64,000 nucleotides of DNA from Desulfobacterales bacterium (GTDB taxonomy: Bacteria; Desulfobacterota; Desulfobacteria; Desulfobacterales; JALSRD01), in NCBI GenBank assembly GCA_026984935.1, contig JALSRD010000011.1, positions 1 to 64,000 of the forward strand, given 5' to 3'. The position numbers were made by a program, and so were the translations under genes. This document shows positions 115-37,101 of the stretch, piece by piece. The notes under the pieces were generated by a model. The model saw nothing but the letters and a program-made list of their open reading frames with translations, did no database searches and had not been told where the DNA came from. How positions within the stretch are numbered: position 1 is the first letter of the stretch; each line of letters opens with the position of its first letter.

Positions 115-921
115 ATGTCCGCTATCACGATTTCCCGGGGATCCTACACCCGCGGCAGGGAAGTGGCTCAAAAGGCCGCTGAAAAGCTGGGTTATGAGTG
201 TATCTCCCGCGAGGTTATTCTGGAGACTTCCAAAAAATTCAACATCCCGGAAGTAAAGCTCGTCCGGGCCATTCATGACGCGCCCTCCATCCTGGACCGC
301 TTCCGCTACGGGAGGGAAAAGTATATCGCTTTCATTCAGGCTGAAATCCTGCGCCGCATGCGCAAGGATAATATCATCTACTGCGGCCTGGCCGGCCATT
401 TTTTCGTACGCGACATCCGCCATATTTTACAGGTCAGGATACTGTCTGACTTCGAGGACCGCGTGAAAAACGAGATGGAACGTGAAAAGATCTCGGCGGA
501 AGCGGCTGCCGCCATCCTCAAAAAAGACGATGAGGAGCGGCGCCGATGGAGCCAGCATTTATATGGCATCGACACCCGCGATCCAAGCCTGTACGATTTG
601 GTGATCAACATCAAGAAGATGAGCGTGGATGATGCGGTGGAGGTCATCTGCAACACCGTGCAAATGGAGCATTTCCAACCCACTGAGCAGTCGCGCCGGG
701 CCATGGAAGACCTGTGGCTGGCCGCCGAGGTCAAGGTGGCGCTGGTGAGCCTGAAGCCCAATATCACCGTTGAAGTCTCAAACGGCATTGCCCTGATCAA
801 GACCACCGCCAGGGAATCACAGGAAGAGGGCTTGATCGATAAAATGGAGAAAATCGCCAGTGCCGTGCCCGGCATCCAGAAGGCCACCATGCAGGTCCGC
901 TGGAAGATCCCGGTGGATTGA
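115..921 (+). CDS. Cytidylate-kinase-like protein with C-terminal BON-like domain (CK-BON 1)
   Basis: This 268-residue protein resembles the cytidylate kinase-like family (Pfam Cytidylate_kin2 type). The N-terminus reads ITISRGSYTRGREVA, where family members usually have a glycine-rich SGG loop. Later family signatures are YCGLAGHFF, WSQHLYG and DPSLYDLV. The last ~65 residues resemble a BON domain (AAEVKVAL, then VSNGIALIKTT, then a VPGI turn). The start is the ATG at 115 behind AGGAGG at 103-108, not the upstream TTG. The reaction is unknown: the degenerate P-loop makes true CMP kinase activity doubtful. It is one of five paralogs in the window and faces the SLC13/CK-BON/two-component operon, whose last gene ends at 997. 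No signal peptide is visible, so a cytoplasmic location is likely. Confidence 0.8.
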   Translation: MSAITISRGSYTRGREVAQKAAEKLGYECISREVILETSKKFNIPEVKLVRAIHDAPSILDRFRYGREKYIAFIQAEILRRMRKDNIIYCGLAGHFFVRDIRHILQVRILSDFEDRVKNEMEREKISAEAAAAILKKDDEERRRWSQHLYGIDTRDPSLYDLVINIKKMSVDDAVEVICNTVQMEHFQPTEQSRRAMEDLWLAAEVKVALVSLKPNITVEVSNGIALIKTTARESQEEGLIDKMEKIASAVPGIQKATMQVRWKIPVD

Positions 922-996: not shown

Positions 997-2586
997 CTAA
1001 TGCGGGACACGCGTGACGGGCAGATAGACCGTAAACGTAGCTCCCTTCCCGACCTCGCTTTCAACGCGCATGAAACCGCCCAGCTGTTCTATGATGTTGC
1101 GTGAGACCGAGAGCCCCAGTCCGGTTCCGCGGCCCTCGGGTTTGGTCGTGAAAAAGGGATCGAAAATCCGGTCCTGAAGGCGCCTTGGGATGCCGGGACC
1201 GTTGTCGGTGATGCTGACAGCCACATATTCGGCCTGTGTGGGTGCATCGACAGTTACGGCGATACGGCCGTGCGCATTTTGCGAAAGTGCGTCCACGGCG
1301 TTTAGCAGCAGATTGACGAAAAGCTGGATGAGCAGTTGGCGATCGCTGTGAACGGGCGGCAGGTTGTCGGGAATACAGGTTTCAATGCGGATTTTCGACA
1401 TCCTGGCCTGACTGGAAACCAGCCGAATCGCCCTGCCGAGCATTTCTCCCAGATCCAGGCGTTTGATTTCCCTTTCACGCTGGCGTGCGAAATCCAGCAG
1501 GTTACGTACGATTTCGCGGCTGCGTTCGGTTTCGCCGACAATATCAGCGAGCATCTCCAGAGCCTCTGCAGGGGGTAGGTCCGCATAGTTTTCCTGCAGG
1601 CTGACGGCGGTCAGCAGGATATTGTTGAGTGGGTTGTTCAGTTCGTGCGCCACACCGGCCACCAGATTGCCGATTGCCCGGATTTTATGGCTTTGCACCA
1701 GAATCTCCTGGCGTTTTTCGATTTCGTCGATCATCTGATTCATGGCGGTGGCCAGTTGGGTGAATTCATCCCGGCGTGTTTTCTTGAATGTGATGCGGGT
1801 GTAATCACCGGCTGCAATACGTTCGGTGAAATCCGTCAAACGTCCCAGGGCAGTGACGATCTTGCGGTTGATATGCCAAGCGGCTGCGAACAGGATGATC
1901 ATCAGAACCGCCAGCAGAATCAGCGGGCCGGTGCGCAGCAGTGAAAATGTCCTGTCGAGGGCCCGGCGCTCCTGGATGGAAAAAGCGTCGGCGTCGGCGG
2001 TGAGCCGGTGGCCGTACTTTCGCAATCGGTGCTGTACTTCAGCACGGACTTCAGGGCTGTGGCCGCCGGCCAGTTTTTGCAGCCCGGCTGCGTAGCTGGC
2101 GAGACTCTTTTGCATGGCGGTCAGCCGGCCGCGGGACATGACCTTGAGGATATCGGCTTCATTGTCCGAGAGGATGCTGCGTGCTTTTTGCGTATGCAGT
2201 AAAGCGTCCCGCAGATGCGTACCGTAAAGAAAGTAGTTTTTTTCAAAGCGGCGCATCTGCGCCGTTTCATGGCGGTATGCATCGGCAAGTTCGAGAAAAC
2301 GGATTTTGTGGTGCACGGCGGGAAGTACGTAGATCGTCCACAGGGTGACCCCGGCACAGTAGACGAAAATTGCCGCAAAGGCCAGTATCAGCCTCAGGCG
2401 GACGGGAAAGCACGCCCGTTGCTGTATCCCCGTGTGCCGGCCGGCAGTAGCGGATTTACGTTCCGCGGCGTCCATGGGCGCGTATACGCACATGGACTCC
2501 CGGGGCCGGTCGGGCGCTTTATTCATGGTGTGGCCGCTGTCGTCCGTCATTGGCACCTGCGGTTTCCCGGTGGATTCGGCATTCAT
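997..2586 (-). CDS. Membrane sensor histidine kinase with HAMP domain
   Basis: This 529-residue kinase has a first membrane segment at about 65-88 and a periplasmic helical region with the motif QMRRFEKNYFL at 110-120. A second membrane segment lies at about 217-237, followed by HAMP. The H-box is GVAHELNNPLNN, and the ATPase domain shows [32 protein letters not shown] and a final TVYLP. It would autophosphorylate and pass phosphate to the single-domain regulator encoded 26 bases upstream. The start is uncertain: no good ribosome site precedes 2586, and several in-frame ATGs occur before the first membrane segment. It is the last gene of the operon that begins with the SLC13 permease at 6511. 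The MRR-x-EK motif is shared with the kinase at 7185. Confidence 0.9.
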   Translation of the reverse strand: MNAESTGKPQVPMTDDSGHTMNKAPDRPRESMCVYAPMDAAERKSATAGRHTGIQQRACFPVRLRLILAFAAIFVYCAGVTLWTIYVLPAVHHKIRFLELADAYRHETAQMRRFEKNYFLYGTHLRDALLHTQKARSILSDNEADILKVMSRGRLTAMQKSLASYAAGLQKLAGGHSPEVRAEVQHRLRKYGHRLTADADAFSIQERRALDRTFSLLRTGPLILLAVLMIILFAAAWHINRKIVTALGRLTDFTERIAAGDYTRITFKKTRRDEFTQLATAMNQMIDEIEKRQEILVQSHKIRAIGNLVAGVAHELNNPLNNILLTAVSLQENYADLPPAEALEMLADIVGETERSREIVRNLLDFARQREREIKRLDLGEMLGRAIRLVSSQARMSKIRIETCIPDNLPPVHSDRQLLIQLFVNLLLNAVDALSQNAHGRIAVTVDAPTQAEYVAVSITDNGPGIPRRLQDRIFDPFFTTKPEGRGTGLGLSVSRNIIEQLGGFMRVESEVGKGATFTVYLPVTRVPH

Positions 2587-2612
2587 GGGAGATTTCGGCG
2601 GCCGCCTTCAAT

Positions 2613-2990
2613 TCAGGCGGAGGGCGCCCGGGCCGCTTTCTCAATGACGGTCCGCAAATCCCCCGGTTTAAACGGCTTGGCGATGAAATCGAAAGCCCCC
2701 TTGTCCAGCGCCCGGCGCGCAAGATCGACGGACGCATACCCGGTGATAATAATCACTTTGGTCTGTGGGATGTTGGCTCGCACGTACTCCAGAATCTGCA
2801 TGCCGTCGACATCGTCCATGCGCACATCGGTGATGACGATGTCGAATCTCTCTTTTGAAAGGCGCGCTATAGCACTGCGGCCGTCACCGAAGGTTTCTAC
2901 CGTGTAGCCGCTGCTCTCCAGCGAGGGCTTCAAACGTTTTCCCACGATGGCCTCGTCATCCACCACCATGATTTTCAGTTTCTGATTCAT
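2613..2990 (-). CDS. Single-domain response regulator
   Basis: This 125-residue receiver domain has no output domain. The acidic pair is DDE at 11-13, the phosphoacceptor is Asp55 (VITDVRM), and the Thr and Lys switch residues are in ITGY and AKPF. It is the probable partner of the kinase encoded just downstream. Close relatives are at 8699 and 9200; all three share a [TIV]VG-x-RLK motif at the start of helix 1. Without an output domain it must act by protein contact or as a phosphate relay. Confidence 0.9.
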   Translation of the reverse strand: MNQKLKIMVVDDEAIVGKRLKPSLESSGYTVETFGDGRSAIARLSKERFDIVITDVRMDDVDGMQILEYVRANIPQTKVIIITGYASVDLARRALDKGAFDFIAKPFKPGDLRTVIEKAARAPSA

Positions 2991-3048
2991 GACTCCGTCC
3001 CCTCAAAGGCCCGCCCCCGCTCCCGGCAGCTGGATTTGGGCCCTTTGG

Positions 3049-3825
3049 CTATAATCTGGCCAGCAGCCCGCTGGCGGCATGCACTTCGACGAAAGACACG
3101 CCTTCGATGTTGCCGGCCTTGATTTTGATGTCTTCGATGACCTTGTTGCGGTTGCGTCGCGAAACCCTGGTTCTGACGATAATCGTGCCCTTGTGGGCTT
3201 CGACTTTGATGTTGGTGTAATCCTTGAGCAGCTGCGAGCGCACCCGGCTGGAGAGCTCCAGGTCTTTCAGGCAGTTGACAGAGAAAGTGTTTGCTCTGAA
3301 TCGGCTGTCCGCAGACATGGCAACCAACGTCCGGACCGCTTCCGTTTCATCGGTTTCGGCCAGGCGGATCACCGTATCGTACTGCGCCGGATCGGTCTGG
3401 TCCATGTCAAAGGCCGTCAGCGACCACTGACGGCAGAGTTGCTCCAACTGTTTGGCATCGGTCTGTGATGCGCCGGCCGCCTTATCAGTTGTGGAAATGA
3501 TGCGCACGCGGATGGCATGTGACACGCCCAGAACGTATAGATGCGCGGCCAGTCCGTGGCAGACCACGTGGTCTGCCAGCAATTTGTCCAGTGTGGCTTC
3601 CTGGATCAGCGCCAGTTGGCGCCGCCAGTTTTTCTTGAAGATCTGTGCCGGCGGGGTCGCCGCATCCAGCAGCCGGTTCAGCCGTTCTTCGGGAATGTCA
3701 TGTTTCGCGGCGATTCCCTCCAGGATCTCCCGGTCGATATAACGGTATCCCAGTGCGGCGGCCGTTTTTTCGGCAATGCGCCGACCGATTGGATAAGCAT
3801 CTGCCGAGACAACGAAAATGGGCAT
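3049..3825 (-). CDS. Divergent CK-BON paralog (CK-BON 2)
   Basis: This 258-residue protein aligns along its whole length with the CK-BON proteins: GYRYIDREILEGIA near the N-terminus, CHGLAAHLYV in the middle, DPAQYDTVIRL, then a BON-like end (VEAHKGTIIVRTRV). It has lost the SRG of the P-loop region, reading VVSADAYPIGRRIA instead, and the WSQHLYG motif is eroded to WSLTAFD. It is therefore probably non-catalytic or has a changed ligand. The start is the ATG at 3825 with AAAGG upstream; the TTG at 3831 is less likely. It lies between CK-BON 3 and the response regulator in one operon. Confidence 0.75.
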   Translation of the reverse strand: MPIFVVSADAYPIGRRIAEKTAAALGYRYIDREILEGIAAKHDIPEERLNRLLDAATPPAQIFKKNWRRQLALIQEATLDKLLADHVVCHGLAAHLYVLGVSHAIRVRIISTTDKAAGASQTDAKQLEQLCRQWSLTAFDMDQTDPAQYDTVIRLAETDETEAVRTLVAMSADSRFRANTFSVNCLKDLELSSRVRSQLLKDYTNIKVEAHKGTIIVRTRVSRRNRNKVIEDIKIKAGNIEGVSFVEVHAASGLLARL

Positions 3826-3875
3826 ATTCAAACCTTTCTGGCAACAGATGGCGCCGTCTTCAGACCATGGCGCTG

Positions 3876-4685
3876 TTACACCGCCCCGGAGGGGACGGGT
3901 CCTGTACGGATTTCCAGGTTGTTGATGTCGCTGTATTCCGTGCTCAGGGACTGGATGCGTTTTCGCAGTCGGCGCACGGTGCGCTCACCGGCCTGGGTGT
4001 AGACCAGCACGTTGCCGTACTCGCTGGTGACACCGGCATTGGCATCGATCTCCACGATGGCGGTTTTGACCCGGCAGGCCAGATGCAGGTCGTCGAGGCG
4101 TTGTTGCGAGGCGCCGGTGGCGCAAAACTGCCGTTTGGCGGCGGCCTGGCAGATAAAGTCAACCGCATCTTCCACGCCGAGTTTTTGAATCTTAATGACC
4201 AGGTCGTACAGGCTGCTGTCCCAGGGGTCTTTGCCGTAGAGCGCCTGCGCCCACTTGCGCCGTTCCTGATCGTCTTTGAGCAGCAGTGCCCTGGCTTTTT
4301 CAAGGTTGATGTGTTCACGGGCGGCTTCGGCGCGGATGCGGCTGTCCATGTCCGAGATGATGCGCACCTTGAGCACGTGGGAGACGCCCTCGAGGAGGAA
4401 GTGGCCGGCCAGGCCGTGATAGACCACGTTGTCTCTGCGGATACGCTGGATGAGCGCGCTGCGGATGCAGGCGATATAGACCCGCCGGTCGTGTCCGAAG
4501 CGGTCCAGCACGCCGGGGGCATCGTGGATGGCGCGGATGAGCTTGACTTCGGGGATGTTGAAGCGTTTGCTGGCATCCAGCAGTACTTCGCGGCTGATGC
4601 AGGCATAGCCCAGACGCACAGCTACCTGCTCGGCCACTTCTTTTCCCCGGCTGTAGGACCCGCGCGAAATGGTGATGACGGCCAT
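3876..4685 (-). CDS. Cytidylate-kinase-like/BON protein (CK-BON 3)
   Basis: This 269-residue protein has ITISRGSYSRGKEVA at the N-terminus, ACISREVLLDAS, YHGLAGHFLLEGV, WAQALYGKDPWDSSLYDLVIKI and a C-terminal BON-like segment (CRVKTAIVEID, then SEYGNVLVYTQ). The ATG at 4685 has AAAGGA eight bases upstream. It begins 17 bases after the SLC13 permease gene ends and 50 bases before CK-BON 2 starts, so the three are probably co-transcribed. The physical link to an anion permease is the main functional clue. The true substrate is unknown. Confidence 0.8.
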   Translation of the reverse strand: MAVITISRGSYSRGKEVAEQVAVRLGYACISREVLLDASKRFNIPEVKLIRAIHDAPGVLDRFGHDRRVYIACIRSALIQRIRRDNVVYHGLAGHFLLEGVSHVLKVRIISDMDSRIRAEAAREHINLEKARALLLKDDQERRKWAQALYGKDPWDSSLYDLVIKIQKLGVEDAVDFICQAAAKRQFCATGASQQRLDDLHLACRVKTAIVEIDANAGVTSEYGNVLVYTQAGERTVRRLRKRIQSLSTEYSDINNLEIRTGPVPSGAV

Positions 4686-4702
4686 CGGGATTCCTTTCTA
4701 GG

Positions 4703-6511
4703 TCAGATTCCGTAAATGAGGTAGATCATACCGATCATAACGACGATGAACAGGGCGCTGATGACCAGCCCGGCCCTCATGAAATCGATGCTGCGGTATC
4801 CGCCGGGCCCCATATAGAGCGCGTTTACCTGGTGGGTCGGCAGCAGAAAAGAGTTGCTGGTGGCCAGCCCCACCACCAGGGCGGCCATGCGCGGGTCGGC
4901 ATGTGCCGCCATGGCCATGTTGACCACCAGCGGCACCAGCAGCACCGTAGCGCCCACGTTGGAAATAACCAGCGTAAAAATGGTGGAGAGGATGCCGATG
5001 ACCGTCAGTAAAACGACGGGTGAAACCGTTCCGATGGTCTTGAGTACGGCATGCGCGATCCAGGCGGCCGTGCCCGTGTTCTGGGTGGCGATTCCCAGGG
5101 GGATCAGGCCGGCCAGCAGGAAGATGGTGCGCCAGTCCACGGACTGGTAGGCTTCGTCGATGCTGAGCACGCGGGTGATGACCATGCCCAGCGCGCCGGT
5201 CATCAGGCTGACGGACAGCTGGATATGAAATATCATGATCATGGTCAGGGCGGTCAGCAGCCATAAGCCGGCCAACAGGGCTTTTTCGGGCCGCAGCGTT
5301 TCAACGTCGATGGGCGTGGTGAACAGCAGGCTGCGCTCTTGCTGCAGCACTTTGAGACGCGACCACTTTCCGTAAATGAGGATCGCATCACCCACCGACA
5401 GCTTCAGGTCCCCGATCTCGGCGCGGTAGGTCTGCCCCTGCCGGTAAATGGCCAGAGGCGTCACCCGGAAGCGATCCTGCAGGTTCACCTGGTTCAAGGT
5501 TTTTCCCTCCAGAGCGGATCGCGGCGCCACGACCGCTTCCACGGTACCGGCGTTTTCCGCGGTCACATCGTTCTGGAAGAACTGCAGTCGATCTTTGAGT
5601 TCCATGCCCTCCTTTTGGGCCATGCGTTTGACATCGGAAAGGCGGCCACGCACGACGATATCGATATCGGAGCGGATTTCGGTTTCCGGCGGCGGCGATA
5701 TCAGTTTGTAGTCCGGTGGTTCGGTCAGCGCCACGGTATTGACCAGGTAGCGCCGCCGCAGGTCGTCGACCCGCACGGGGTCGCGGTAATCGGTGAAGTC
5801 CGCAGGGGTATGCAGTTCGTACATATCCCCCATTTCCTTGAGCGCGGCGGGGATTTCCGGAAGGGATTCGTCGTCAGCTGTTTCGGCCGGCTTCTGAGGG
5901 AGGATGAAACGTCCCAGCACGATAAAACAGGCGATGCCGGTGGCCACCAGCGCCAGCCCGATGGGTGTGACGTCGAACAGGCCGAAAGGCTCGAGGTGGA
6001 AAGGCGCCAGCAGGTCGTTTAACAGGATCAGCGGGCTGCAGCCCACCAGGGTGACGGTGCCTCCGAGAATGGCGGAAAAGCCCACCGGCATCAGCAGCCG
6101 GCTGATGGGGATTTTCACCGATTTGCTGATGCGCTGGATGGCCGGCAGAAAGAGCGCCGCCGCGCCGATGTTCTGCATGAAACTGGAAATCAGGGCCACG
6201 GTCAGCGAGATGAAGACAACCACTCTGGAGGCGCTCCCACCGGCCAGGCGCATGATAGGCGCCACCAGCTTGTTGATGATTCCGGTCTTGTCGAGACCGG
6301 CGCCGATGATGATCACCGCGATGATCGAGATGACGGCATTGCTGGAAAATCCGACGAAGGCTTCTTTGGGGGAAACCAGGTGCAATAGGGGCAGGGCCAC
6401 CATCATCAGAATGGCCACCACATCGACCCGTACCCATTCCACGACGAAGAGGAAGACGGCGACGCCGATCATTGCCATCACCAGGATCATTTCAGTCGTC
6501 AGCGGCTCCAT
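4703..6511 (-). CDS. SLC13/DASS-type anion permease with two RCK_C domains
   Basis: This 602-residue membrane transporter has about eleven hydrophobic segments. A central hydrophilic part (about 215-400) carries two TrkA_C/RCK_C-like domains, the second around VVAPRSALEGKTLNQVNL. The paired SLC13 signatures are IISNVGATVLLVP-like in the second half and FMQNIGAAALFLPA in the first. Proteins of this layout are predicted sodium-coupled sulfate, phosphate or dicarboxylate carriers; in a sulfate reducer sulfate is an attractive but unproven substrate. The ATG at 6511 has GGAAAGGAA upstream. It is the first gene of a five-gene minus-strand operon ending in a two-component pair, so the kinase may sense the transported anion. 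Confidence 0.88.
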   Translation of the reverse strand: MEPLTTEMILVMAMIGVAVFLFVVEWVRVDVVAILMMVALPLLHLVSPKEAFVGFSSNAVISIIAVIIIGAGLDKTGIINKLVAPIMRLAGGSASRVVVFISLTVALISSFMQNIGAAALFLPAIQRISKSVKIPISRLLMPVGFSAILGGTVTLVGCSPLILLNDLLAPFHLEPFGLFDVTPIGLALVATGIACFIVLGRFILPQKPAETADDESLPEIPAALKEMGDMYELHTPADFTDYRDPVRVDDLRRRYLVNTVALTEPPDYKLISPPPETEIRSDIDIVVRGRLSDVKRMAQKEGMELKDRLQFFQNDVTAENAGTVEAVVAPRSALEGKTLNQVNLQDRFRVTPLAIYRQGQTYRAEIGDLKLSVGDAILIYGKWSRLKVLQQERSLLFTTPIDVETLRPEKALLAGLWLLTALTMIMIFHIQLSVSLMTGALGMVITRVLSIDEAYQSVDWRTIFLLAGLIPLGIATQNTGTAAWIAHAVLKTIGTVSPVVLLTVIGILSTIFTLVISNVGATVLLVPLVVNMAMAAHADPRMAALVVGLATSNSFLLPTHQVNALYMGPGGYRSIDFMRAGLVISALFIVVMIGMIYLIYGI

Positions 6512-7184
6512 CGGTTTCCTTTCCAGCCGAGTTTGCTGTCATCGGCATCCGGCCGTTGCCCGCTTGGGACGTTGCCTTTGGTTGTTGCTGTGCGGCTCCA
6601 CCTCCGTGTACGCAATTCGAGGGACGTTTGAGGGAATTTCGTCGACGCTGCATCCGTTTGAGGATAACGGAAGGCCTTGGAGATTGACAGATACGGGGTA
6701 GGGATGATTTGATGCTGCGGGCCGCCGCTTTGCCACCCAAGCGGAGATGGAGATGACGTCTGCGGTCCATTTCTGCAGGCGTTGCATACGGATGATAACT
6801 CCGCTTTTGCCCCGGGCAAGCCCGGTGGTTTCGGGAGATCCGGGGCACCGGTTCTTGGCGTTGCATCTGCCGGAGGGCCGGCGGGCACGCATGGCTGCCT
6901 TGCGAGCAGGCTGTCCCGGAGGCCTGGGGAAAGCCCCGTTCTTTAGGCGGCCGGTGGTTGCTCGCGGCGCGATGTCGCTTGTCTTTTTTAAACAGATCCT
7001 GTATTAGCAGGCAAGCCGCATCTTGCAAAAAGAAAACGCACTATATCAAAATAGATGCGAAATGCAAGATCAAATAAAGGGAAGAAGGCCCGATGACGAA
7101 ATGCTTTCAACCCGCCCCTTTGCGGTTTACACGGCTTGAAGTGCGATAAACGGGCTGCTGTGCCTGACCAAGCGGAAACTTTAT
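6512..7184. other. Divergent intergenic region
   Basis: This 673-base region separates the minus-strand SLC13 operon from the plus-strand histidine kinase gene. I see no supported gene; the open frames have no coherent protein features. A weak minus-strand promoter candidate is TTGCAT, 16 bases, TATAGT at 7067 down to 7040. A GC-rich stretch with repeated CCGG elements lies at about 6805-6850. Promoters for both directions are expected here. Confidence 0.5.
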
Positions 7185-8651
7185 ATGCAACAGCAAAACG
7201 GCAACCGCAGGGCTGATAATTTTCCCCACACGATCCGCAATGAGATCAATATCGCATTTCTGGTTTTTTTCGTGCTCATCGCGCTGCTGGTCCTGGGCGG
7301 CTACAACAATTTCCGCCGTCTGGACCGGGCCGTGGAATTTTTTACGTTGGCCGAGGACCTGGACACCAGTATTCTGGAGATGCGGCGCAATGAGAAGAAT
7401 TTTTTCATCCTGCCCGAGCAGTTCAGCTACGATGAAACCCTCGAATATGCCGGCCGTGTTCAGAACCTCCTGGATCGGCACGGTCAAACGTTCAAATGGG
7501 GCATGGGAGATGCCAAACTGAACAGCCTGCGCAAAGAGCTTCAGAGCTATGTCGCTTTGATGAACCAGTTGAGCAATACATCCCCCAAGGATTCATCCTA
7601 CGGTGACGTCAAGGCCAGCATCCGGGCCCGGGGGGAAGCGCTGCTGGCGATTACCCGCGAACAGGCCGGCAGGAAACGCGGTGATGTCAAGGACCTTTTG
7701 AGACAGACCATGCGCTATCCGCTGATCACCCTGGCCGCCATGGCGCTTTTGCTGGTGCTGACCCTCTACGTCACCAACCGCCGAATTCTCGGGCCGTTGC
7801 GGGATATCACCGAGGATGCCCGCGGTATTGCGGAAGGTGCTTTTCGCCGTATTCCGGAAAAGCCGGGGCGCCGAAATGAAATCTACAACCTGGTGGCCGC
7901 GTTAAACCGCATGATGGATGAGATCGAAACACGACAGGACCAGCTGGTGCAGTCCAGCAAGATCGCCGCCATCGGTACGCTCACATCGGGAATCGCTCAC
8001 GAACTGAACAATCCCATCAACAACCTCGGACTGATTGTCGAGTCGCTCATGGAAGACGGCGAAGAGATGACCTCCGATGAACGCATGCGGCTGTATGAAG
8101 AGGCTCTGGACCAGGCCGACCGTGCCAGCGAAACGGTCAAAAACCTGCTGGAGTTCTCCCGGGCCAGCCACCCGCGTCTGGAAGAGGTCAGCCTGGAAGA
8201 GGTGTTTGGCAAAATTCAGCGCCTTTTGCAAAATGAGATGGACCTGCACAACATCCAGTTCTCCCTGAATGTGCGCCACGATCTGCCCTTGATGTATCTT
8301 GACCGCAGCGGGCTGCAGCAGGTGCTGCTCAATCTGATGCTAAACGCCATTCAGGCCATGGGGAATGGCGGCAGGCTGGAAGTCAGAGCCGATTTTGCGG
8401 CTGGCCGCAGGGAAGTGCGCATCGATGTGACCGACAATGGCCCGGGGATTCCTCCAGAGCATTTGAAGCAGATTTTTGACCCCTTTTTCACCACCAAACC
8501 CGAAGGCCAGGGCACGGGGCTCGGCCTTTCGGTCAGCTACAGCATTATTAAAAAGCAGGGCGGCCGCATGGAGGTGAAAAGCGCCGAGGGCGCGGGCACG
8601 CGCTTTTCAATTTTCCTGCCGCGCAGGAATAAACCCGCAGCAGCCGGCTGA
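7185..8651 (+). CDS. Membrane sensor histidine kinase with HAMP domain
   Basis: This 488-residue kinase has membrane segments at about 22-41 and 180-200 flanking a periplasmic helical sensor with [11 protein letters not shown] at 65-75. HAMP follows, then the H-box [44 protein letters not shown] and a final FSIFLP. It is a clear paralog of the kinase at 997-2586. The MRR-x-EK-[ND]-[FY] motif is typical of helical-bundle periplasmic sensor domains. Its partner is the single-domain regulator 47 bases downstream. The ligand is unknown. Confidence 0.9.
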
Positions 8652-8698
8652 GGCCGGGATTCCCGTCGGCGGCAGCTGGAATGTGAGGAGATCAAGCC

Positions 8699-9106
8699 AT
8701 GGGCAATCCGCTGGATATTCTTCTGATAGACGATGAAGCCGTGGTGGGTGACCGGCTCAAACCGGCACTGGAAAAACAGGGTGACCACGTGGAGTCTTAC
8801 GTGGATCCGAAGCAGGCAAAGGCGCGCATTGAAGAAAAAGATTTTGACATCATTATTACGGATATCCGCATGGCCGAGGTCGATGGTATCCAGATCCTGG
8901 AGTGGGCCCAGGCCAAAAGCCGCCGTACCAAGGTCATCATGATCACCGGTTACGCCACCATGGAACTGGCGCGCGAAGCCCTCAACAAGGGGGCTTTCGA
9001 TTTCATTGCCAAGCCGTTTAAGATGAAGGAAGTCCGGGCAGCCGTCGGCAAGGCAGCTCAAGCCCTGCGCGAGGCCGAAGATGGAGCGGGTGGTAGGCTG
9101 TCCTGA
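8699..9106 (+). CDS. Single-domain response regulator
   Basis: This 135-residue receiver domain has LLIDDEAVVGDRLKP, the phosphoacceptor Asp in IIITDIRM, MITGYA and IAKPFK. It has no output domain. The ATG at 8699 is preceded by TGAGGAGAT. It is co-directional with the kinase at 7185 and is its presumed partner. It ends about 90 bases before the end of the convergent regulator gene at 9200. Confidence 0.9.
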   Translation: MGNPLDILLIDDEAVVGDRLKPALEKQGDHVESYVDPKQAKARIEEKDFDIIITDIRMAEVDGIQILEWAQAKSRRTKVIMITGYATMELAREALNKGAFDFIAKPFKMKEVRAAVGKAAQALREAEDGAGGRLS

Positions 9107-9199: not shown

Positions 9200-9613
9200 T
9201 CAGGAAACGCCCGTGGTGCTTCCGCTTGCGAGGGCATCTGCTGCCCGCAGAATGGACTGACGCAGTTCATCCAGCCTGAAAGGTTTGGTGATGAAGTCGA
9301 AAACCCCCTGGCGAAAAGCTTCGGTGGCGGTTTCGAGCTGGGCATAGCCGGTGATCAGGATGACCTTGATACGGGGGTGGTGTGCTCGAATTTTGGCCAG
9401 CACCTGCATGCCGTCCATACCCTTCATTTTCAGGTCGGTTACGACAATGTCGAAGGGCTGTTCCTGCAGGCGTTGCATGGCGGCTTCGGGGTTTGTGAAG
9501 GTTTCGATGGTAAATCCGATTTTTCCGAAAACATGCTTCAACCTTCTGCCGACGGTGGGTTCATCGTCGATCACCATCAGTCGGGGCGAACTGGGTCTTG
9601 TGGTGTGTTCCAT
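9200..9613 (-). CDS. Single-domain response regulator
   Basis: This 137-residue receiver has LMVIDDEPTVGRRLK, the phosphoacceptor Asp in VVTDLKM, LITGYA and ITKPFR. The ATG at 9613 starts 19 bases after the stop of the PEP-synthase-like gene and is preferred over the upstream in-frame start at 9667, which would overlap that gene. It is an orphan regulator with no adjacent kinase, at the 3' end of the TauE/SafE-TIGR02186-PEP-synthase-like operon. It may take phosphate from one of the two nearby kinases. Confidence 0.88.
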   Translation of the reverse strand: MEHTTRPSSPRLMVIDDEPTVGRRLKHVFGKIGFTIETFTNPEAAMQRLQEQPFDIVVTDLKMKGMDGMQVLAKIRAHHPRIKVILITGYAQLETATEAFRQGVFDFITKPFRLDELRQSILRAADALASGSTTGVS

Positions 9614-9632
9614 GAAGCAGGCCCTTGTTTTT

Positions 9633-12266
9633 TCAGGCTGAAGAAGCGGCGCCGTCACTGTGCACAACGCCGTAGTTCCCGTCGAGAAAGGCTTTCACGT
9701 AGCGGTGGACGACGTGGTCGTTGTCCATGTGCACATCCAGCTGACGTGTAAATCCAATCAGACGCCCCAGTATGTTTAAGGTATGCTCCATTTCCCCCCG
9801 GGGCATGTTTCCCGAACGGCTGGTGACGACATCCCCGCGGGTCTGAACATTCAGGTTGAAGGCTTCCAGAATTTCGGCAATCATCCGGGCCCGCCGCGAA
9901 CGTTTGGAAATGTCCGTTGCACCGCCCACAAAGCGAAAGTAGAAATGATTGTTGCGCACCGTATCGCTGCAGAAAGCATCCACAATGTTGAAGTGGTAGC
10001 CGAAGCGCAGGCTCAGATTGACATACTCTGCTGTCAGAATGCCGATATTGTGACCCGAATACTGCCCGCTGAGACTGTCCGCCGGGGCATTGACGATGCT
10101 GGTGACCATGTCCCTGAATCCCACATTCATGGCTTCGCGGTGCCATACACCCGGATAGAGCATGCCTTCGAGCAGGGCTTTAAAGGGGATGCAGGCCACA
10201 TCATTTAACCCAATGCGGCTATCAGGTGCATTATCTTTGATCCCGCCCCCCATGTCAATAACGATGATGCCGGTGGGGATGTCCAGCTCCAGGGTTTTTT
10301 TATGGTGGCTCTGAAGCAGGCGCTTTTCATCCCGGCCGAGGTTGATCATCTCCAGGACGGCCTTTTCATGCACATAACGCAGAATGTCATGGTAAGTTTC
10401 ACACTTGTTCAACGTGAAGTCTTCCAGAAGCGGATCGACCAGGTTGAGGCTCGCTACGGCATGCAGAAACCTTCTGAGCAGCCTGAAGGCCGGTGTCTGA
10501 AACACATTCAGGCTGCTGGATGCGCGGTAAGTCAGCAGTTCGGGTACGCGCCCTTTGTAAATGCGGTTGTCCTCCACATCGACCGTTACTTCCATGCCCT
10601 CTTTTACGCAATCCAGAATACCGTCGACGTTGACCAGGCAGGGAACGCCGAATTCCCTGCAGATGGTGGCCATGTGGCTGACGGGAGTGCCCACCTCGGT
10701 GACAATGGCCGCCACTTTGTCCATGACCAGGGCAAGGCTGGACATGTCACGCGGGCTGACAACGACCGTCCCTTCAGGAAGATCGTCAAGATCGGCTGTC
10801 GAACGCACGACCTTGACAGGCCCCGCACCGATGCCCTGCTGAGCGATTTTGCCCCGGTCCCGGATCAGGATTTCATATTTTTCCAGTAAACCGGGAAGCG
10901 CATCCCCGCGCTGTGCTTCTTTTTTCAGTAGCAGGGGGCGGGACTGCAGGATGTAGATGCGTTCGGAGCTGTCTACCACCCATTCCACATCCTGCGGCAA
11001 TTTAAAATAATTTTCCAGGCGCAATGCCATGCGAGCCAATGATCGCACCTGGTCGTCGCGGATACAGGCGCGCTTCTGATCCGCTTTGGGAATCGGCCGG
11101 TATTCGAGGCCGCCCCGGCGGGACTTCGCGAAGAGCCCCCTGGATTTGACGGCAATCTGCCGCTGGATGATCTCCAGGTCGCCGAACTTCTTGACGGTGA
11201 AAGTGTCCGTGGGGATTTGGCCGCTGACGACAGCTTCCCCCTGTCCCCAGGCACATGCAATGAGCAGCGTATCGCCCCCGGGCTGGGAGGGGTTGTCGGT
11301 GTAAAGCACCCCGGAAGCGACAGCGTCGATCATCTTCTGACAGCCCACAGCGATGGATATCTGTCCTTCACCCTGAAGGACAGTGCAGCGATACTGCACG
11401 GCATGGCTTTCGAAGAGACTGGCGGTCACCTTGCGGTAAGCCTCGAGAATTTCGGCTGTGTCGGCCGGAACTCCCAGTTCGGTTTTGTATTGGCCGGCAA
11501 AGGAAAAATCCATATCCTCTTCCCGGGCACTGCTCCGCACAGCCAGCCGCATTGGGGCTTGGCCGCAGGCATCCCGCAAATGCTGGAGATGCGTGTCCAG
11601 CGCCTTGATCAGAGGTGGCGGTACTTTGGCGTGCAATAGGCCGTTTTGGAGTGTTGTGCGGGCGGCTTCAAGGGATTCCGGCGGCGCATCACCACCTGCA
11701 ACCAGACTTTCAAAGGTGTCGAGTGTATCCCGCAGGCCGTTAAAATCAATGATGTCGTGATAGGCGCGTGTGGTGATGACGAAGCCCTCGGGAACGGGCA
11801 GGTGAAGGTCGCGGGCGATCTGTGCCAGGTGCCGGTTCTTGCCCCCCACGATGGCGTATGAAAAGCGGGTGATATCTTCCAGCTTTAGAAATGCCGGCCC
11901 TTCGCGGTCTTCGCGCTGATCTACGATCCGGCGGATGTGTTCCGTGATGCGGTCGTAGGTCCCGTACAGGTCGCGGTAGCAGTTTTCGCATACCGTATTT
12001 AAAGCGTGTACAGATTTTAAAACCGCATCGGATAACGCCACAAAGGCGGTTTCAACATAGTGGCTGTCAAAGACATAGTCACCGCTGAGTTTAACGCCCA
12101 CGTCGGCGATCAATTCCAGGGCGTGATTGTTACACTTCAAGACATCCTTGAATTTCTCGAATTTGAACGTGACGTAAGAATCTCCCACCGGACCCGCACG
12201 GCGGCGACCGCCGCCGCCCAGCAGCTCCTGCAGGCGTTTCAGCAGGGACAAGGCGTTTCTCCTCAA
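9633..12266 (-). CDS. PEP-synthase-like phosphotransferase with unusual C-terminal domain
   Basis: This 877-residue protein starts with a ~120-residue helical region. A PPDK/PEP-synthase ATP-binding domain follows (about 130-470; VGGKNRHLAQIA, RSSAREEDMDFSFAGQY), then a swivelling phosphohistidine domain with VGTPVSHMATICREFGVP, catalytic His about 531. The usual PEP/pyruvate TIM barrel is absent. Instead ~290 residues of no family I recognise follow, with IIVIDMGGGIKDNAP, SLSGQYSGHNIGI and DAFCSDTVRNNHFYFRFVGG. It may transfer phosphate from ATP through the histidine to an acceptor bound by the new domain, as rifampin phosphotransferase does with a different domain order. It overlaps the preceding gene by ATGA at 12263-12266. 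Confidence 0.8.
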   Translation of the reverse strand: MRRNALSLLKRLQELLGGGGRRRAGPVGDSYVTFKFEKFKDVLKCNNHALELIADVGVKLSGDYVFDSHYVETAFVALSDAVLKSVHALNTVCENCYRDLYGTYDRITEHIRRIVDQREDREGPAFLKLEDITRFSYAIVGGKNRHLAQIARDLHLPVPEGFVITTRAYHDIIDFNGLRDTLDTFESLVAGGDAPPESLEAARTTLQNGLLHAKVPPPLIKALDTHLQHLRDACGQAPMRLAVRSSAREEDMDFSFAGQYKTELGVPADTAEILEAYRKVTASLFESHAVQYRCTVLQGEGQISIAVGCQKMIDAVASGVLYTDNPSQPGGDTLLIACAWGQGEAVVSGQIPTDTFTVKKFGDLEIIQRQIAVKSRGLFAKSRRGGLEYRPIPKADQKRACIRDDQVRSLARMALRLENYFKLPQDVEWVVDSSERIYILQSRPLLLKKEAQRGDALPGLLEKYEILIRDRGKIAQQGIGAGPVKVVRSTADLDDLPEGTVVVSPRDMSSLALVMDKVAAIVTEVGTPVSHMATICREFGVPCLVNVDGILDCVKEGMEVTVDVEDNRIYKGRVPELLTYRASSSLNVFQTPAFRLLRRFLHAVASLNLVDPLLEDFTLNKCETYHDILRYVHEKAVLEMINLGRDEKRLLQSHHKKTLELDIPTGIIVIDMGGGIKDNAPDSRIGLNDVACIPFKALLEGMLYPGVWHREAMNVGFRDMVTSIVNAPADSLSGQYSGHNIGILTAEYVNLSLRFGYHFNIVDAFCSDTVRNNHFYFRFVGGATDISKRSRRARMIAEILEAFNLNVQTRGDVVTSRSGNMPRGEMEHTLNILGRLIGFTRQLDVHMDNDHVVHRYVKAFLDGNYGVVHSDGAASSA

Positions 12267-13051
12267 TGACTGCCGATATTTTTGAAAATCAGGCCCACAC
12301 CGATACCGGCGACGATGGCGACCAGGATGGCCAGCAGGCCGTAAACGGCCGCCCGGCGTGTTGCCAGTTGAGTGAGCTGCTCAACGACACCGGTTTTTTC
12401 GATGCGGATGCTGCCGCTGGCCGAGCCGTTGACCCGGCCGTCTTGGACTGCCAGCACCTGCACCGCGTACTTCCCCGGGGGGGCTTCAAAGGGCCAGTCC
12501 AGCTCCAGGCGGAATTCACCGCCACCTGCGGCCATGTGGACCGCTTGCGGCCTGATGCGGTAAATATTTTCCTGCTCTTTGAATTTAATGAATTCGCCGG
12601 TCCAGAGTGCTTTGTCGATAAATTTCCTGGTGCTGTGGATGATCATTCTTTCTTTCAGCGCCGCGTAACCGATACCTTCTTTTTTCTGCGCTTCGGGTTT
12701 CAGCAGGTCATCCAGTGGTGCTGTCGTATAGAGCATGTAAAGAGACGGAATATTGTCGAAGCGCATGGTGCCCATTTTCATCCAGAGGAATCCGGCGGCT
12801 TTGCCCTTGTACTTCAGGTGGGTCTGGCCGGGCGGCGACTGGATCTGAATAAGGATACCGTCAGCCGGTCCGCTCTGCCCGCTGATCGAAAGCTTTGCGC
12901 CATGATAGCCAAGTGTGATCGCCACCCGGTCCGGGGCAATTTTACAGGTTACACCGAAGGCGCCCGGCGCGTAAAAAAGAAGCAGAAAAGTGGTGGTTGC
13001 GGCAATCGGGGCCAGCGTGCCGCCCGCAAGCCCTTTTAGCAGATGTCTCAT
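12263..13051 (-). CDS. TIGR02186-like membrane-anchored periplasmic protein
   Basis: This 262-residue protein has an N-terminal signal or anchor segment (about 15-33), a long periplasmic part and a C-terminal membrane helix at about 237-256 (YGLLAILVAIVAGIGVGLI). The sequence and layout fit the TIGR02186/Alph_Pro_TM family, whose genes are commonly found next to TauE/SafE-type exporters, as here: the exporter gene ends three bases upstream. It overlaps the downstream gene by four bases. It may be an accessory subunit of the exporter; its function is not established. Confidence 0.75.
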   Translation of the reverse strand: MRHLLKGLAGGTLAPIAATTTFLLLFYAPGAFGVTCKIAPDRVAITLGYHGAKLSISGQSGPADGILIQIQSPPGQTHLKYKGKAAGFLWMKMGTMRFDNIPSLYMLYTTAPLDDLLKPEAQKKEGIGYAALKERMIIHSTRKFIDKALWTGEFIKFKEQENIYRIRPQAVHMAAGGGEFRLELDWPFEAPPGKYAVQVLAVQDGRVNGSASGSIRIEKTGVVEQLTQLATRRAAVYGLLAILVAIVAGIGVGLIFKNIGSH

Positions 13052-13054
13052 CTT

Positions 13055-13993
13055 CTAGTGACCTCCTCCCGGTGCCAGCAGCAATGAGGGGGCCATGACC
13101 AGGCCCAGGATCATTTTCACCGTTACCGCCAGGACGATGACGGCCAGCAGAATTTTTAACTGGTCGCCCTTGAGCTTGCGCCCCAGCACCGTGCCGATCT
13201 GTGCGCCCAGGGTTGAACCGATGAGCAGCAGGATGGCCAGAACGAAATCCACCGTATGGTTGCTGTAAGCCTGCAGAAAGGTCACTTCGACGCAGGTAAA
13301 CATGATTTGAAACAAGCTGGTGCCCACCACCACATGCATGGGCATGCGCAGCATGTAGATCATGACGGGAACCATCAGGAAACCGCCGCCGACACCCATG
13401 ATGGCCGCCAGAATGCCGACAAAAACACCCAGGCCGATGGGCACCAGCGCGGAGTGTGTCACGCCGGATTTGTCGAAATATATCTGTAAAGGGAGAGATT
13501 TCCACAGGCTCTTTTTGGTGCCTTTGAGCTTGGCATGGCTTTCGGCCGACCGTTTGGATACCGGTGTTACGGGGCCCTTTCGCAGGGCGTGCAGGCTTTC
13601 GAAAAACATAAAAGCGCCCACCAGGCCCAGCATTACCACGTAGGTCATTTTAATCAGGAAGTCAGCACCGCCTGTGGCCCGCAGAATTTTAATCACATGC
13701 ACGCCGATGGCGCCGCCGGTAAAGCCGCCGATGAGCAGCATCAGGCCCATTTTGAAATCGACGTTGCCCAGCCGCCAGTGCGCCAGGGTGCCGGAGGCCG
13801 AAGCCGCCACGATCTGGTTGGCGTCGGTGGCGGCGGCGACCGTCGGTGGGATGCCGATCATCATTAAAAGCGGCGTCATCAGGAAACCGCCGCCGACGCC
13901 AAACAACCCGGAAAGCAGGCCCACCAGAAGTCCCAGACCCACAACCAGCCAGAGGTTCACGCTGGTCAATGCAATGGGCAAAAAAATGTGCAT
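13055..13993 (-). CDS. TauE/SafE (TSUP) family anion exporter
   Basis: This 312-residue membrane protein has two similar halves, each with the family hallmark: GLFGVGGGFLMTPLL near the N-terminus and IMGVGGGFLMVPVMI in the middle. About eight membrane segments are separated by a hydrophilic loop at about 150-185. The family exports sulfite, sulfoacetate or related anions. The ATG at 13993 with GGGGAG eight bases upstream is chosen over the in-frame start at 14029. It is first in the operon with the TIGR02186-like protein, the PEP-synthase-like protein and a response regulator. Confidence 0.88.
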   Translation of the reverse strand: MHIFLPIALTSVNLWLVVGLGLLVGLLSGLFGVGGGFLMTPLLMMIGIPPTVAAATDANQIVAASASGTLAHWRLGNVDFKMGLMLLIGGFTGGAIGVHVIKILRATGGADFLIKMTYVVMLGLVGAFMFFESLHALRKGPVTPVSKRSAESHAKLKGTKKSLWKSLPLQIYFDKSGVTHSALVPIGLGVFVGILAAIMGVGGGFLMVPVMIYMLRMPMHVVVGTSLFQIMFTCVEVTFLQAYSNHTVDFVLAILLLIGSTLGAQIGTVLGRKLKGDQLKILLAVIVLAVTVKMILGLVMAPSLLLAPGGGH

Positions 13994-14452
13994 GGCATTT
14001 CTCCCCTTTCTGCAAAACAGCCGCACCACAGGTTCAATCGAAAAGCCTTAAATGGCACGGCTGCTGGTTTCCAGCTGCAGGATCCAGAACACTCGCTGGA
14101 ATAAATTCATAAAACAAAATTGAAGAAAGATCAAATCTAAAAATTCTTTTAAGGGCTGGATTCAGGCGCTGGAACGCTGCGGCGGCGCCTGGCCGACCGG
14201 CGTTCATTGCTATGAACCCCGCGCTGCCTCCTCATGCAGCTGTGCATGCTTGACACCAGTGGTTCCAGGCAGCTTTGGTTTTTGGCGCCGGTTAAAACAA
14301 GAACGTTTTGCCGGGGGCCTAAGGCGATTTCAAGGCAGCCATTTGCGAAGATGCTTCAGTGCCAATAACGGCAGGTTTAAAGTCGCGCCCCAAAATACCG
14401 ATATTGGTGTCGGGGGGAGATTCATCCATGATCGACCTGTGAGGAATTTGAG
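13994..14452. other. Divergent intergenic region
   Basis: These 459 bases separate the minus-strand exporter operon from the plus-strand HDOD-GGDEF gene. I found no gene. An AT-rich stretch at about 14105-14150 is the most promoter-like part, but no clear -35/-10 pair stands out. Confidence 0.4.
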
Positions 14453-35093: not shown

Positions 35094-36191
35094 TTATCCC
35101 ACCAGCGGAATATGTATCCCGAACGCCCCTCCCACACCCCGGGCAATCAGCTTCAGGGAGGAGAGCACGAGGATGACAATCAGGATTTTGCGCACGAAAC
35201 CGGCCCGGATGCGGATGAGCAGATGTGCACCCAGGATTCCACCCACCACCTGTCCCAGAAGCCACGGGGCCACGACGATCGCAATCAGGGCGCCGTAGGT
35301 GATGTATGTCCAGATGGCGGTGGCGTTGCTGATGGCCAAAAGGACCCCACTGCACGCCGCGGCGATTTTCACCGGCGCCATCATGACGAGATTCAAAGTA
35401 GCGGTGAGAAAGGCGCCGCCCCCCATACCGAAAAAGCCTCCGATGAAGCCCAGCAGGATAAAAATCAGGGCGCCCGGAAGCGCTCTGACCAGCTGGTAGT
35501 CAACGATCTTTCCCAGGGAGCTTTCCCAGTAAGACCCGTTGAGCCCGAGTTTCACAGAAAGTGCGTCAATATGTTCCGGTTCGGGATACTCTGTCTTGCC
35601 CCCTCCGGTGAGCAGAAAATAGGCGATCACCAGCATGAGGATCCCCAGTGACAGGCGCACCATCCCATCGCCGACAGCCCCCAGGGCATCGTGCAGATAA
35701 ATGGCGCAGACACTCCCGGCAAGTGCGCCCACCGTAATGGGCACGCCGCAGAAGAACACGACTCTCAGGTTGGCCAGACGGCTCTTCATGAAGGGCCCCG
35801 ATGAAATCAGCCCGCTGAACATGGCGACCACCAGGCCCGTGGCCCGTATGACCAGGCTGTCCATGGAGGTGAAGCCGAGCATGATGGGGGTGAAAATCAC
35901 GCCTCCGCCAATGCCTGCAACCACCGCGATAATCGCAATGGCGGTGCTGATCAGAAAGGATCCGGCAATGATCAGCCACATGGACGTGGGGGTCAGGTCC
36001 TGAGTTCCCTGTACCTTCGAAAACACGGCCATGAGAAGATAGCCGCCGAGGATGAGGAGAATCAGCAAAGTCAATTCCGGAACACTGGTCACAATGCGTT
36101 TCAGCGTGCCCTTGCTCCGCCGTTGCTTGCCTGGTTTGGCATCTGCTTCCTTTTCCTCTGAAACAGCCGAATCCAGCTCTGCAGGCGCCAT
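35094..36191 (-). CDS. TauE/SafE (TSUP) exporter (module copy 2)
   Basis: This 365-residue membrane protein has a charged N-terminal extension of about 40 residues (EEKEADAKPGKQRRSKG) and about nine membrane segments. The repeated family hallmarks are VVAGIGGGVIFTPIML and FFGMGGGAFLTATLNL. ATG 36191 with AAGGAGGG is preferred over the start at 36221. It lies between CK-BON 4 and the DUF1634-like gene. Exporters of this family carry sulfite or organosulfonates; the exact substrate is unknown. Confidence 0.87.
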   Translation of the reverse strand: MAPAELDSAVSEEKEADAKPGKQRRSKGTLKRIVTSVPELTLLILLILGGYLLMAVFSKVQGTQDLTPTSMWLIIAGSFLISTAIAIIAVVAGIGGGVIFTPIMLGFTSMDSLVIRATGLVVAMFSGLISSGPFMKSRLANLRVVFFCGVPITVGALAGSVCAIYLHDALGAVGDGMVRLSLGILMLVIAYFLLTGGGKTEYPEPEHIDALSVKLGLNGSYWESSLGKIVDYQLVRALPGALIFILLGFIGGFFGMGGGAFLTATLNLVMMAPVKIAAACSGVLLAISNATAIWTYITYGALIAIVVAPWLLGQVVGGILGAHLLIRIRAGFVRKILIVILVLSSLKLIARGVGGAFGIHIPLVG

Positions 36192-36291
36192 ATGCTTTGT
36201 CCCTCCTTCTCGGTTTGGCATGTCTGGTAAACAACAGCATCCGTGTACGCGTAACCTTAGGTCAGCAGCCGGAAGAGATGCGGCCCAATCG

Positions 36292-37101
36292 TCAACTCAC
36301 GTAGTCTTCTCTGTGCTTTGCACCCACATACACCTCCTTTACACCGTCCACGGATTTGGCAATTGCCTCCATGTCCCGAATGAGATCCTTGCCTTCGACC
36401 AGTACCGCCGTTGTGTGAATCTTCACGACCCCTTTGGCGGCGACGACATCGACATCCGGCCTGAGATCCATCAGGGCGGCTTTCACCTGGGTGGCGATGG
36501 CGATGTCTTCCAGGGCCTGCTGGGACTCCGGCGTGGTTTCAAAAGTTTTGCGGGCCACGGTCTTGCAAATCACATCGGCGGCATCATCCGGGGTCATGTT
36601 CCCGAGGTGGATGACCAGGTCGTAGAGGCTGGGATCCTGGATATCGATGCCGTACAGATGCTGGCTCCACTTCCTGCGCCCTTCATCATCCTGCCGGATT
36701 TTCCGCAAGGCTTCCTTTCTTGAAATACCCTCACGTTCCGCCACGTTTTTGACGCGTTCGTCAAGGTTGACGATAATGCGCACTTTCAGCACGTGCGGGA
36801 TGTCTTTTACAAAAAAATGGCCCGCCAGCCCGCAGTAAACCACATCGTCCTTTCTGAAATGTTTGAGAATGGCGGACCAAATGAAAGTGATGTATTTTTC
36901 CTTCTGGTATCCCATACGTTCGAGGATGGACGGCGCGTCCTTGATGGCGTGGTTCAGTTTGATTTCGGGGACGTTAAACTCTTTGGATGCTTCCAGAAGC
37001 ACCTCGCGCGAAAGGCACTCGTACATAAGGGTTGAGCTGACGTTTTCCGAAATCTCTTTGCCTTTGCTGTATACGTCTCTGGATATGGTGATAATTGACA
37101 T
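36292..37101 (-). CDS. Cytidylate-kinase-like/BON protein (CK-BON 4, module copy 2)
   Basis: This 269-residue protein has ITISRDVYSKGKEIS in the P-loop position, ECLSREVLLEASKEF, YCGLAGHFFVKDI, WSQHLYGIDIQDPSLYDLVIHL and a BON-like end (TQVKAALMDLRPDVDVVAAKGVVKIHTT). ATG 37101 with AGGAGG seven bases upstream is clear. It is the first gene of the second exporter module, 100 bases before the TauE/SafE gene. It is very similar to CK-BON 1 and 5. Confidence 0.8.
   Translation of the reverse strand: MSIITISRDVYSKGKEISENVSSTLMYECLSREVLLEASKEFNVPEIKLNHAIKDAPSILERMGYQKEKYITFIWSAILKHFRKDDVVYCGLAGHFFVKDIPHVLKVRIIVNLDERVKNVAEREGISRKEALRKIRQDDEGRRKWSQHLYGIDIQDPSLYDLVIHLGNMTPDDAADVICKTVARKTFETTPESQQALEDIAIATQVKAALMDLRPDVDVVAAKGVVKIHTTAVLVEGKDLIRDMEAIAKSVDGVKEVYVGAKHREDYVS

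Follow-up and report, generated by a model that had tools for sequence, protein, structure and literature searches.

Sulfate respiration begins with the import of sulfate. How cells match this import to their energy state is an open question on which a 2025 study of Desulfobacteraceae, in the part of it available to us, only speculates (PMC11887813). The question is raised again by a row of five genes in positions 1 to 64,000 of contig JALSRD010000011.1 of a Desulfobacterales bacterium (GenBank assembly GCA_026984935.1), a 64,000-nucleotide stretch which we refer to as the window. The row, found on the minus strand in the list of open-reading frames (ORFs), joins an SLC13 permease with an RCK_C (TrkA_C) domain, two proteins made of a cytidylate-kinase-like domain and a BON-like tail (CK-BON proteins, here CK3 and CK2), a receiver-only response regulator (RR) and a histidine kinase (HK). 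What does such a set do? Its best-supported role would be the control of sulfate uptake in sulfate reducers, and we consider it an even call whether the five genes are an uptake operon for sulfate or a sulfate-like anion in a dissimilatory sulfate reducer, controlled by the nucleotide-binding CK pair and a phosphorelay. What is new is that CK-BON genes lie near three unrelated families of sulfate transporter, SLC13, TSUP and SulP, and the five genes together suggest a mode of sulfate-uptake control that is still unstudied. In gene order, the row reads:

4703..6511, minus strand: SLC13/DASS-type permease of 602 aa that opens the operon, with RCK_C (TrkA_C) between its transmembrane halves
3876..4685, minus strand: CK3, cytidylate-kinase-like domain and C-terminal BON-like domain, 269 aa, PF13189
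3049..3825 (from the ATG), minus strand: CK2, degenerate CK-BON paralogue, PF13189 at 50.7 bits
2613..2990, minus strand: receiver-only RR, 125 aa, Response_reg only
997..2586, minus strand: membrane HK with an unnamed N-terminal sensor region, HAMP, HisKA and HATPase_c, 529 aa

Conservation of the five-gene order

The intergenic gaps measure 17, 44, 58 and 26 bases, the second becoming 50 when CK2 is counted from its ATG at 3825, which has AAAGG seven bases upstream, instead of from the TTG at 3831 that opens its mechanical ORF (260 aa). A scan of the four junctions on the minus strand found a terminator-like site in none. The five-gene arrangement with gaps of about 17, 50, 58 and 26 bases, which a preliminary description had drawn from the DNA letters and their ORFs, is therefore borne out by the ORFs, the 50 being the distance from the CK2 ATG, and its order recurs in relatives. 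These relatives come from two surveys. In one, four CK-BON proteins were searched against 84,980 species genomes; this gave 224 relatives, the 80 best of which were kept, and its two search patterns favour the GLAGHF and LGYxCISRE motifs. In the other, profiles of CK2 and of the permease were run over 297 genomes of the phylum, and permeases scoring >900 bits there are termed near-clade.

The full order permease-CK3-CK2-RR-HK is present in 11 loci, the window included (the others being L008, where a contig end cuts the HK, L010, L012, L024, L128, L130, L131, L132, L133 and L135). Three loci (L009, L126 and L127) keep permease-CK3-CK2-RR and have an HK and an NtrC-type RR upstream instead, whilst in L136 a TSUP gene replaces the permease and is followed by CK2, RR and HK. 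In most loci the RR and HK genes either overlap or stand very close together (spacing -41 to 44 bases; 118 in L143). Among the 297 genomes, 14 of the 15 near-clade permeases have a CK gene directly downstream, and ten have both CK3 and CK2; two are followed by a CK2-type gene only (G184, G036), two by a CK3-type gene only (G072, and G091 at a contig end) and one (G058) by no CK gene. Homologous operons lacking parts, which the preliminary description had held would speak against it, do occur in a minority, as this one permease without a CK gene and several loci without one CK gene or an adjacent HK demonstrate.

On a tree of 72 permeases, made by a quick method and with several long branches, the 23 CK-adjacent permeases form a 20-member clade (support 97), all of whose members are CK-adjacent, and a 3-member clade. 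CK adjacency changes only twice on this tree, compared with 19.7 times in shuffles, none of 500 of which was as low. A chance array of unrelated neighbours is rejected because the order recurs and the CK label clusters on the permease tree; the five genes are a real and conserved set, predicted to form one operon.

Transporters, receiver fusions and sulfate respiration

Within 4 kb of the 80 CK-BON loci, 34 have a transporter of one of the three families: SLC13-RCK permeases at 10, TSUP at 18 and SulP at 6, the last named by Pfam or NCBIfam in L027, L046, L065, L082 and L085 and by phmmer only in L068. The link between CK-BON proteins and anion transporters that had been suggested from the window is thus upheld beyond it, and for SulP as a third family. 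When near and far zones around CK-BON genes are compared, the far zone being a weak control since it lies within the same loci, the enrichment is significant for RR (p = 0.0007) and TSUP genes (p = 0.008), and not significant by themselves for SulP (p = 0.06) and SLC13 (p = 0.13). The host genome (3.9 Mb in 112 contigs, completeness 99.45%) carries six TSUP genes over cut-off, three of them in the window. If other genomes resemble it, this rate would predict fewer than one TSUP gene in the 519 kb examined.

The second line of evidence is fusion. Among 36 CK ORFs of >390 aa, a subset of such ORFs chosen by length from the CK2 profile survey, 29 carry a receiver behind the CK-BON part, and Pfam confirms Cytidylate_kin2 with Response_reg in all seven fusions scanned. 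Directly downstream of SulP lie 22 of the 29; of the remaining seven, four are at contig ends (L204, L208, L213, L225) and three have no SulP there (L207, L209, L218). In three clusters the adjoining SulP permease itself ends in STAS and Response_reg (L194, 5818-8358; L206, 2343-4928; L212, 5876-8470). These clusters continue with HK and RR genes, and one stretch (L044), in a cluster of this kind, holds SulP, a CK-receiver fusion, dCache kinases, RRs, a CK-BON gene and two DASS-type genes. The clusters look like the SulP cluster in the available part of PMC11887813. With receivers attached to both a sulfate permease and the kinase-like protein beside it, an HK would have a direct route to the transporter, without transcription.

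CK-BON genes also track sulfate respiration. Across the 297 genomes, aprA is over cut-off in 44 of 48 CK-BON genomes (the exceptions being G196, G208, G252 and G287) and in 75 of 249 others (p = 5e-16), where a CK-BON call means a CK2 profile E-value of about 1e-40 or better, a threshold set after viewing the list, with best E-values of 5e-42 to 2e-41 at its edge. Collapsed by taxonomic family, the association remains (22 of 23 CK-BON families vs. 23 of 72 others, p = 5e-8), the families being taken from listings and their total of 95 a floor. Genomes with a near-clade permease have aprA in 14 of 15 cases. The host carries aprA and dsrA, with a second, weaker match beside dsrA. With its three unrelated kinds of sulfate-transporter neighbour, its aprA association and its receiver fusions, the CK-BON family offers testable molecular handles on uptake control.

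Other features of CK-BON neighbourhoods were observed in these surveys. CK proteins of ~505-565 aa stand directly by TSUP genes in seven loci (L221, L223, L224, L226, L227, L024, L136), and their ~300 C-terminal residues gave no Pfam match in the three scanned. Divergent CK-BON pairs adjoin a DHA2-type MFS efflux gene in L052 and L083. Two CK-BON genes are on contigs labelled Dehalococcoidia and Planctomycetota (L014, L079), by horizontal transfer or in mis-binned metagenome-assembled genomes.

Domains of the operon proteins and their surroundings

The permease scores over the Pfam cut-offs for CitMHS (264.9 vs. 31.9 bits) and Na_sulph_symp (45.6 vs. 27 bits), and its TrkA_C domain (49.1 vs. 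27 bits) occupies residues 324-389 between the membrane halves; the L010 permease has two such stretches. Profile matches in the PDB are to VcINDY and SLC13 proteins, with an E-value of 1.5e-15 to a VcINDY chain, and the permease is 70-76% identical to seven orthologs that share the gene order. The two SNT substrate/sodium motifs of VcINDY align with QNI and SNV, and this replacement argues against a plain dicarboxylate carrier.

CK3, CK2 and a further CK-BON protein of the window, CK1, are all over the 28-bit cut-off of Cytidylate_kin2 (PF13189), at 139.9, 50.7 and 146.5 bits. An AlphaFold2 model of CK3 (pLDDT 90.9) matches the uncharacterised kinases 3hdt (Z 19.6) and 3fdi and the E. coli cytidine monophosphate (CMP) kinase (Z 14.0), with adenosine 5'-phosphosulfate (APS) kinase and adenylate-kinase-related structures also among the matches. 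The P-loop of CK3 is a conserved variant, G9xYSxG14K15: among 98 CK3-type proteins G stands at position 14 in every one, K or R at position 15 in 94, and E or D at position 16 in 89. CK2, 40-43% identical to six orthologs, is more altered, with further kinase-site residues lost: all of five CK2-type proteins have D for G9, R8 is replaced by A or S, and positions 15, 116 and 139 vary. This suggests that a kinase-like protein is paired with a degenerate one, an arrangement common to many pseudo-enzyme pairs. In the host genome PF13189 matches seven proteins, namely the five CK-BON proteins, whose genes all lie in the window, a tail-less protein on contig C55 and, on contig C101, the Cmk (L007), which has a canonical P-loop. 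Counts of the GLAGH motif in CK-BON proteins are biased, as it served as a search pattern.

The tails are harder to name. No tail in the window reaches the 27-bit cut-off of BON (PF04972), the best scoring 25.6 bits, and 27 of 103 CK tails match it at an E-value of 0.01 or better; a profile of all 103 matches OsmY (6.3e-9) and YraP/DolP (7.1e-6) in the PDB. Because the kinase domain fills the match list of the whole CK3 model, in which no BON structure is among the matches listed, the tail was modelled alone. Its predicted fold is alpha-beta-beta-alpha-beta, with OsmY, BonA and DolP as the three best PDB structure matches. The BON label holds, if weakly for each protein taken singly, hence "BON-like". 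Lipid binding by these tails cannot be assumed, since the available part of the DolP study reports that binding of anionic phospholipid needs a residue missing in OsmY (PMC7806268).

The two-component proteins appear intact. The RR (Response_reg 108.6 bits) has no output domain by Pfam, and its residues D11, D12, D55, T83 and K105 are invariant in seven aligned sequences; the HK, 37-42% identical to four operon orthologs, has HAMP, HisKA and HATPase_c over cut-off and an invariant H314, and Pfam names no family for its sensor region. With these acceptor residues and kinase boxes, the pair has the components of a two-component phosphorelay.

Two further features flank the operon:

6512..7184, no strand: intergenic region upstream of the permease, common to a divergent HK at 7185, no sigma-54-like site
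115..921, plus strand: CK1, a further CK-BON gene, PF13189 at 146.5 bits, BON match of its tail at E-value 0.014, below the cut-off

CK1 converges with the operon, with 75 bases between the stops. On the other side, 7185-9106 (plus strand) encodes a second HK and receiver-only RR, divergent from the operon; in L009, L024 and L126, HKs resembling this one have NtrC-type RRs as partners. Further along, 9200-14029 (minus strand) holds in a row TSUP, Alph_Pro_TM (PF09608), a PPDK_N/PEP-utilizer protein and a receiver-only RR, and sets resembling it adjoin CK-BON genes in L049 and L075. At 35094-40002 (minus strand) CK5, TSUP, CK4 and TSUP alternate.

Proposed mechanism, rival explanations and known systems

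In the mechanism that we propose, the SLC13-RCK permease would import sulfate or a sulfate-like anion, whilst CK3 and CK2 would be cytosolic nucleotide-binding proteins whose BON-like tails may place both at the membrane or on the RCK_C domain of the permease. The pair would report the nucleotide state, plausibly adenosine monophosphate (AMP) or APS from sulfate activation and APS reduction, and would open or close the transporter. The HK, to judge by its intact domains and residues, would sense an outside signal and phosphorylate the receiver, which could act on the CK pair or the permease; in relatives having one, an NtrC-type regulator may also receive the phosphate. Nucleotide sensing by the CK pair and action of the receiver on CK or permease are a reasoned proposal, made by analogy with the fusions. 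A bolder extension, which we hold possible but lean against, is that CK-BON proteins are an unnamed class of transporter regulators: paired, membrane-placed, nucleotide-sensing pseudo-kinases, set by a receiver (in trans here, fused beside SulP), sensing APS or AMP and gating unrelated sulfate importers. If this is true, phosphorelay and energy state would meet at the transporter protein as well as at its gene.

Several findings weigh against the proposed role or parts of it. The permease misses the curated NCBIfam dass model TIGR00785 (103.5 vs. 198.6 bits). None of SLC13-RCK, TSUP or SulP is within 4 kb of 46 of the 80 CK-BON loci, some of these on short contigs; some loci adjoin ClC, MscS, Nramp or DHA2 genes; and a general association of CK-BON with HK genes is not supported (24 near vs. 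11 far, p = 0.32). The association of the predicted CK-BON genes with sulfate-transporter families is strong, not exclusive, and kinship is accounted for in its statistics by family collapse only. Direct action of the receiver is challenged by the presence, in 11 of 21 related loci, of an NtrC-type RR gene upstream of the permease at a distance of 686-804 bp, which in one relative scanned encodes Sigma54_activat and HTH_8, and by sigma-54-like sites (>=9 of 11 positions, that is at least nine) in 8 of the 21 upstream regions, where shuffles give 0.98. All of these sites are in loci with the NtrC-type gene or in L134, most ~490-620 bases before the permease start (that of L024 at -247 of an over-long ORF start). 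Some of the 21 regions are near-copies: L011 and L126 are one locus, and the permeases are 90-93% identical in L131-L133 and 93% in L010/L012. A Usp gene was also observed between the NtrC gene and the permease in L010, L012 (6397-6873), L013, L024, L128-L133 and L135; a Usp-type gene is absent near the window permease.

The HK might then phosphorylate an NtrC-type regulator, next door in relatives and elsewhere in the host genome, which drives the operon from a sigma-54 promoter, leaving the receiver-only RR as a phosphate sink or feedback branch that contacts neither permease nor CK proteins. The best NCBIfam matches of the HK, AtoS and ZraS, agree with this, as those kinases pair with NtrC-type regulators. 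So does the receiver tree (few columns, many unresolved forks), where the operon RR is in one clade with NtrC receivers (support 99) and not with CK-fused ones. A strict Rosetta stone, with the window RR as the receiver that is CK-fused elsewhere, is not supported by this tree, and because of this grouping we take the fusions as analogy, not as an orthologous Rosetta stone. In the window, however, the region 6512..7184 has no sigma-54-like site of 8 or more of 11, unlike relatives, no NtrC gene is nearby, and the host genome has no ortholog of the operon-linked NtrC protein, its best match being 45% identical vs. 50-80% among operon-linked ones. Moreover, the operon keeps its receiver-only gene even where an NtrC gene is present, and other clusters have receivers fused to CK-BON and SulP. 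We regard purely transcriptional control as unlikely, if far from negligible. The preliminary description was right that the RR lacks a DNA-binding domain; its step from there to a relay acting directly is weakened by the NtrC genes, sigma-54-like sites and receiver clade, and gains indirect support from the CK-BON-receiver fusions beside SulP and the SulP-STAS-receiver permeases. Direct action of the RR is plausible, and the transcriptional and direct modes may coexist.

Two further rivals concern the CK proteins and the substrate. CK3 and its kin could be metabolic kinases that recycle nucleotides near the membrane, placed there since sulfate activation releases AMP, and would not regulate the permease. 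The CMP-kinase-like fold, the APS kinase and adenylate-kinase-related matches, the strong aprA association and the basic residue at P-loop position 15 fit such a role; yet the canonical GxxxxGK[ST] loop is not found, the Walker A lysine being followed by E or D and not S or T, which makes kinase activity of CK3 doubtful (and tells against our own proposal too), CK is fused to receiver domains, the tandem partner is degenerate and the host has five CK-BON genes besides a separate canonical Cmk. Plain CMP kinases are not supported, as CK3 scores 30.4 against the 102.1 bits of the (d)CMP kinase model TIGR02173, which CK2 does not match, and P-loop and separate Cmk speak likewise. We find a metabolic role quite improbable. 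Alternatively, the operon may handle another anion (e.g. dicarboxylate, thiosulfate, molybdate or tungstate), in which case the sulfate association would be a phylogenetic background that sulfate reducers share. Of the Pfam models CitMHS fits the permease best, aprA is present in 22 of 37 genomes with only distant permeases of this type, and the host has two other DASS-like proteins (three with the operon permease) and two PiT proteins that could carry sulfate. But QNI and SNV stand at the SNT motifs, CK-BON adjoins SulP and TSUP too, the family-collapsed aprA association remains and SulP was not found in the host genome; another substrate seems to us improbable.

Sulfate-uptake control by an SLC13 relative thus remains our preferred reading, and known systems resemble its parts. 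The transmembrane halves of the permease align by profile with SLC13/DASS proteins (VcINDY, NaS1, NaDC3; PDB), from which it differs by the RCK_C between the halves, QNI/SNV for SNT and a score short of the dass model; we class it, on domain content, as an RCK_C-bearing SLC13/DASS relative outside the TIGR00785 set. CK3 shares its predicted fold with Cytidylate_kin2 proteins and CMP kinases (3hdt, 3fdi, Cmk), whereas CK-BON proteins have the BON-like tail, the GLAGH motif and the altered P-loop. OsmY, DolP/YraP and BonA are the best PDB matches to the CK tail by profile and fold, but the tail is a single domain fused to a kinase-like one. NtrB/NtrC systems with sigma-54 control share the HK class and, in relatives, the neighbouring regulator; the window RR has no AAA+ or HTH output, carrying Response_reg without the Sigma54_activat and HTH that follow the receiver in NtrC-type proteins, and no sigma-54-like site lies upstream.

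The closest systems are the DASS and SulP sulfate-uptake clusters of Desulfobacteraceae, which in the available part of their description include two-component systems, CBS proteins and TetR, and whose authors offer, as speculation, a feedback of intracellular APS or energy state on uptake via CBS proteins (PMC11887813). The term "cytidylate" is absent from the main text of that paper, and a full-text search covering part of the PMC literature yielded no paper that connects cytidylate-kinase-like or CK-BON proteins with the transport of sulfate; clusters of transporter and two-component genes for sulfate uptake are known, whilst the CK-BON component and the receiver fusions were not found in the literature searched. 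As in those clusters, anion transporter, HK and RR genes stand together in sulfate reducers. They differ, so far as that part of the paper describes them, in that the operon HK shows no dCache, the RR is receiver-only where a WalR-type RR marks the DASS/CBS clusters, and CBS was found in none of the five proteins. We therefore do not class the operon as a member, although it may work like such a cluster, with CK-BON proteins standing where that text invokes CBS proteins.

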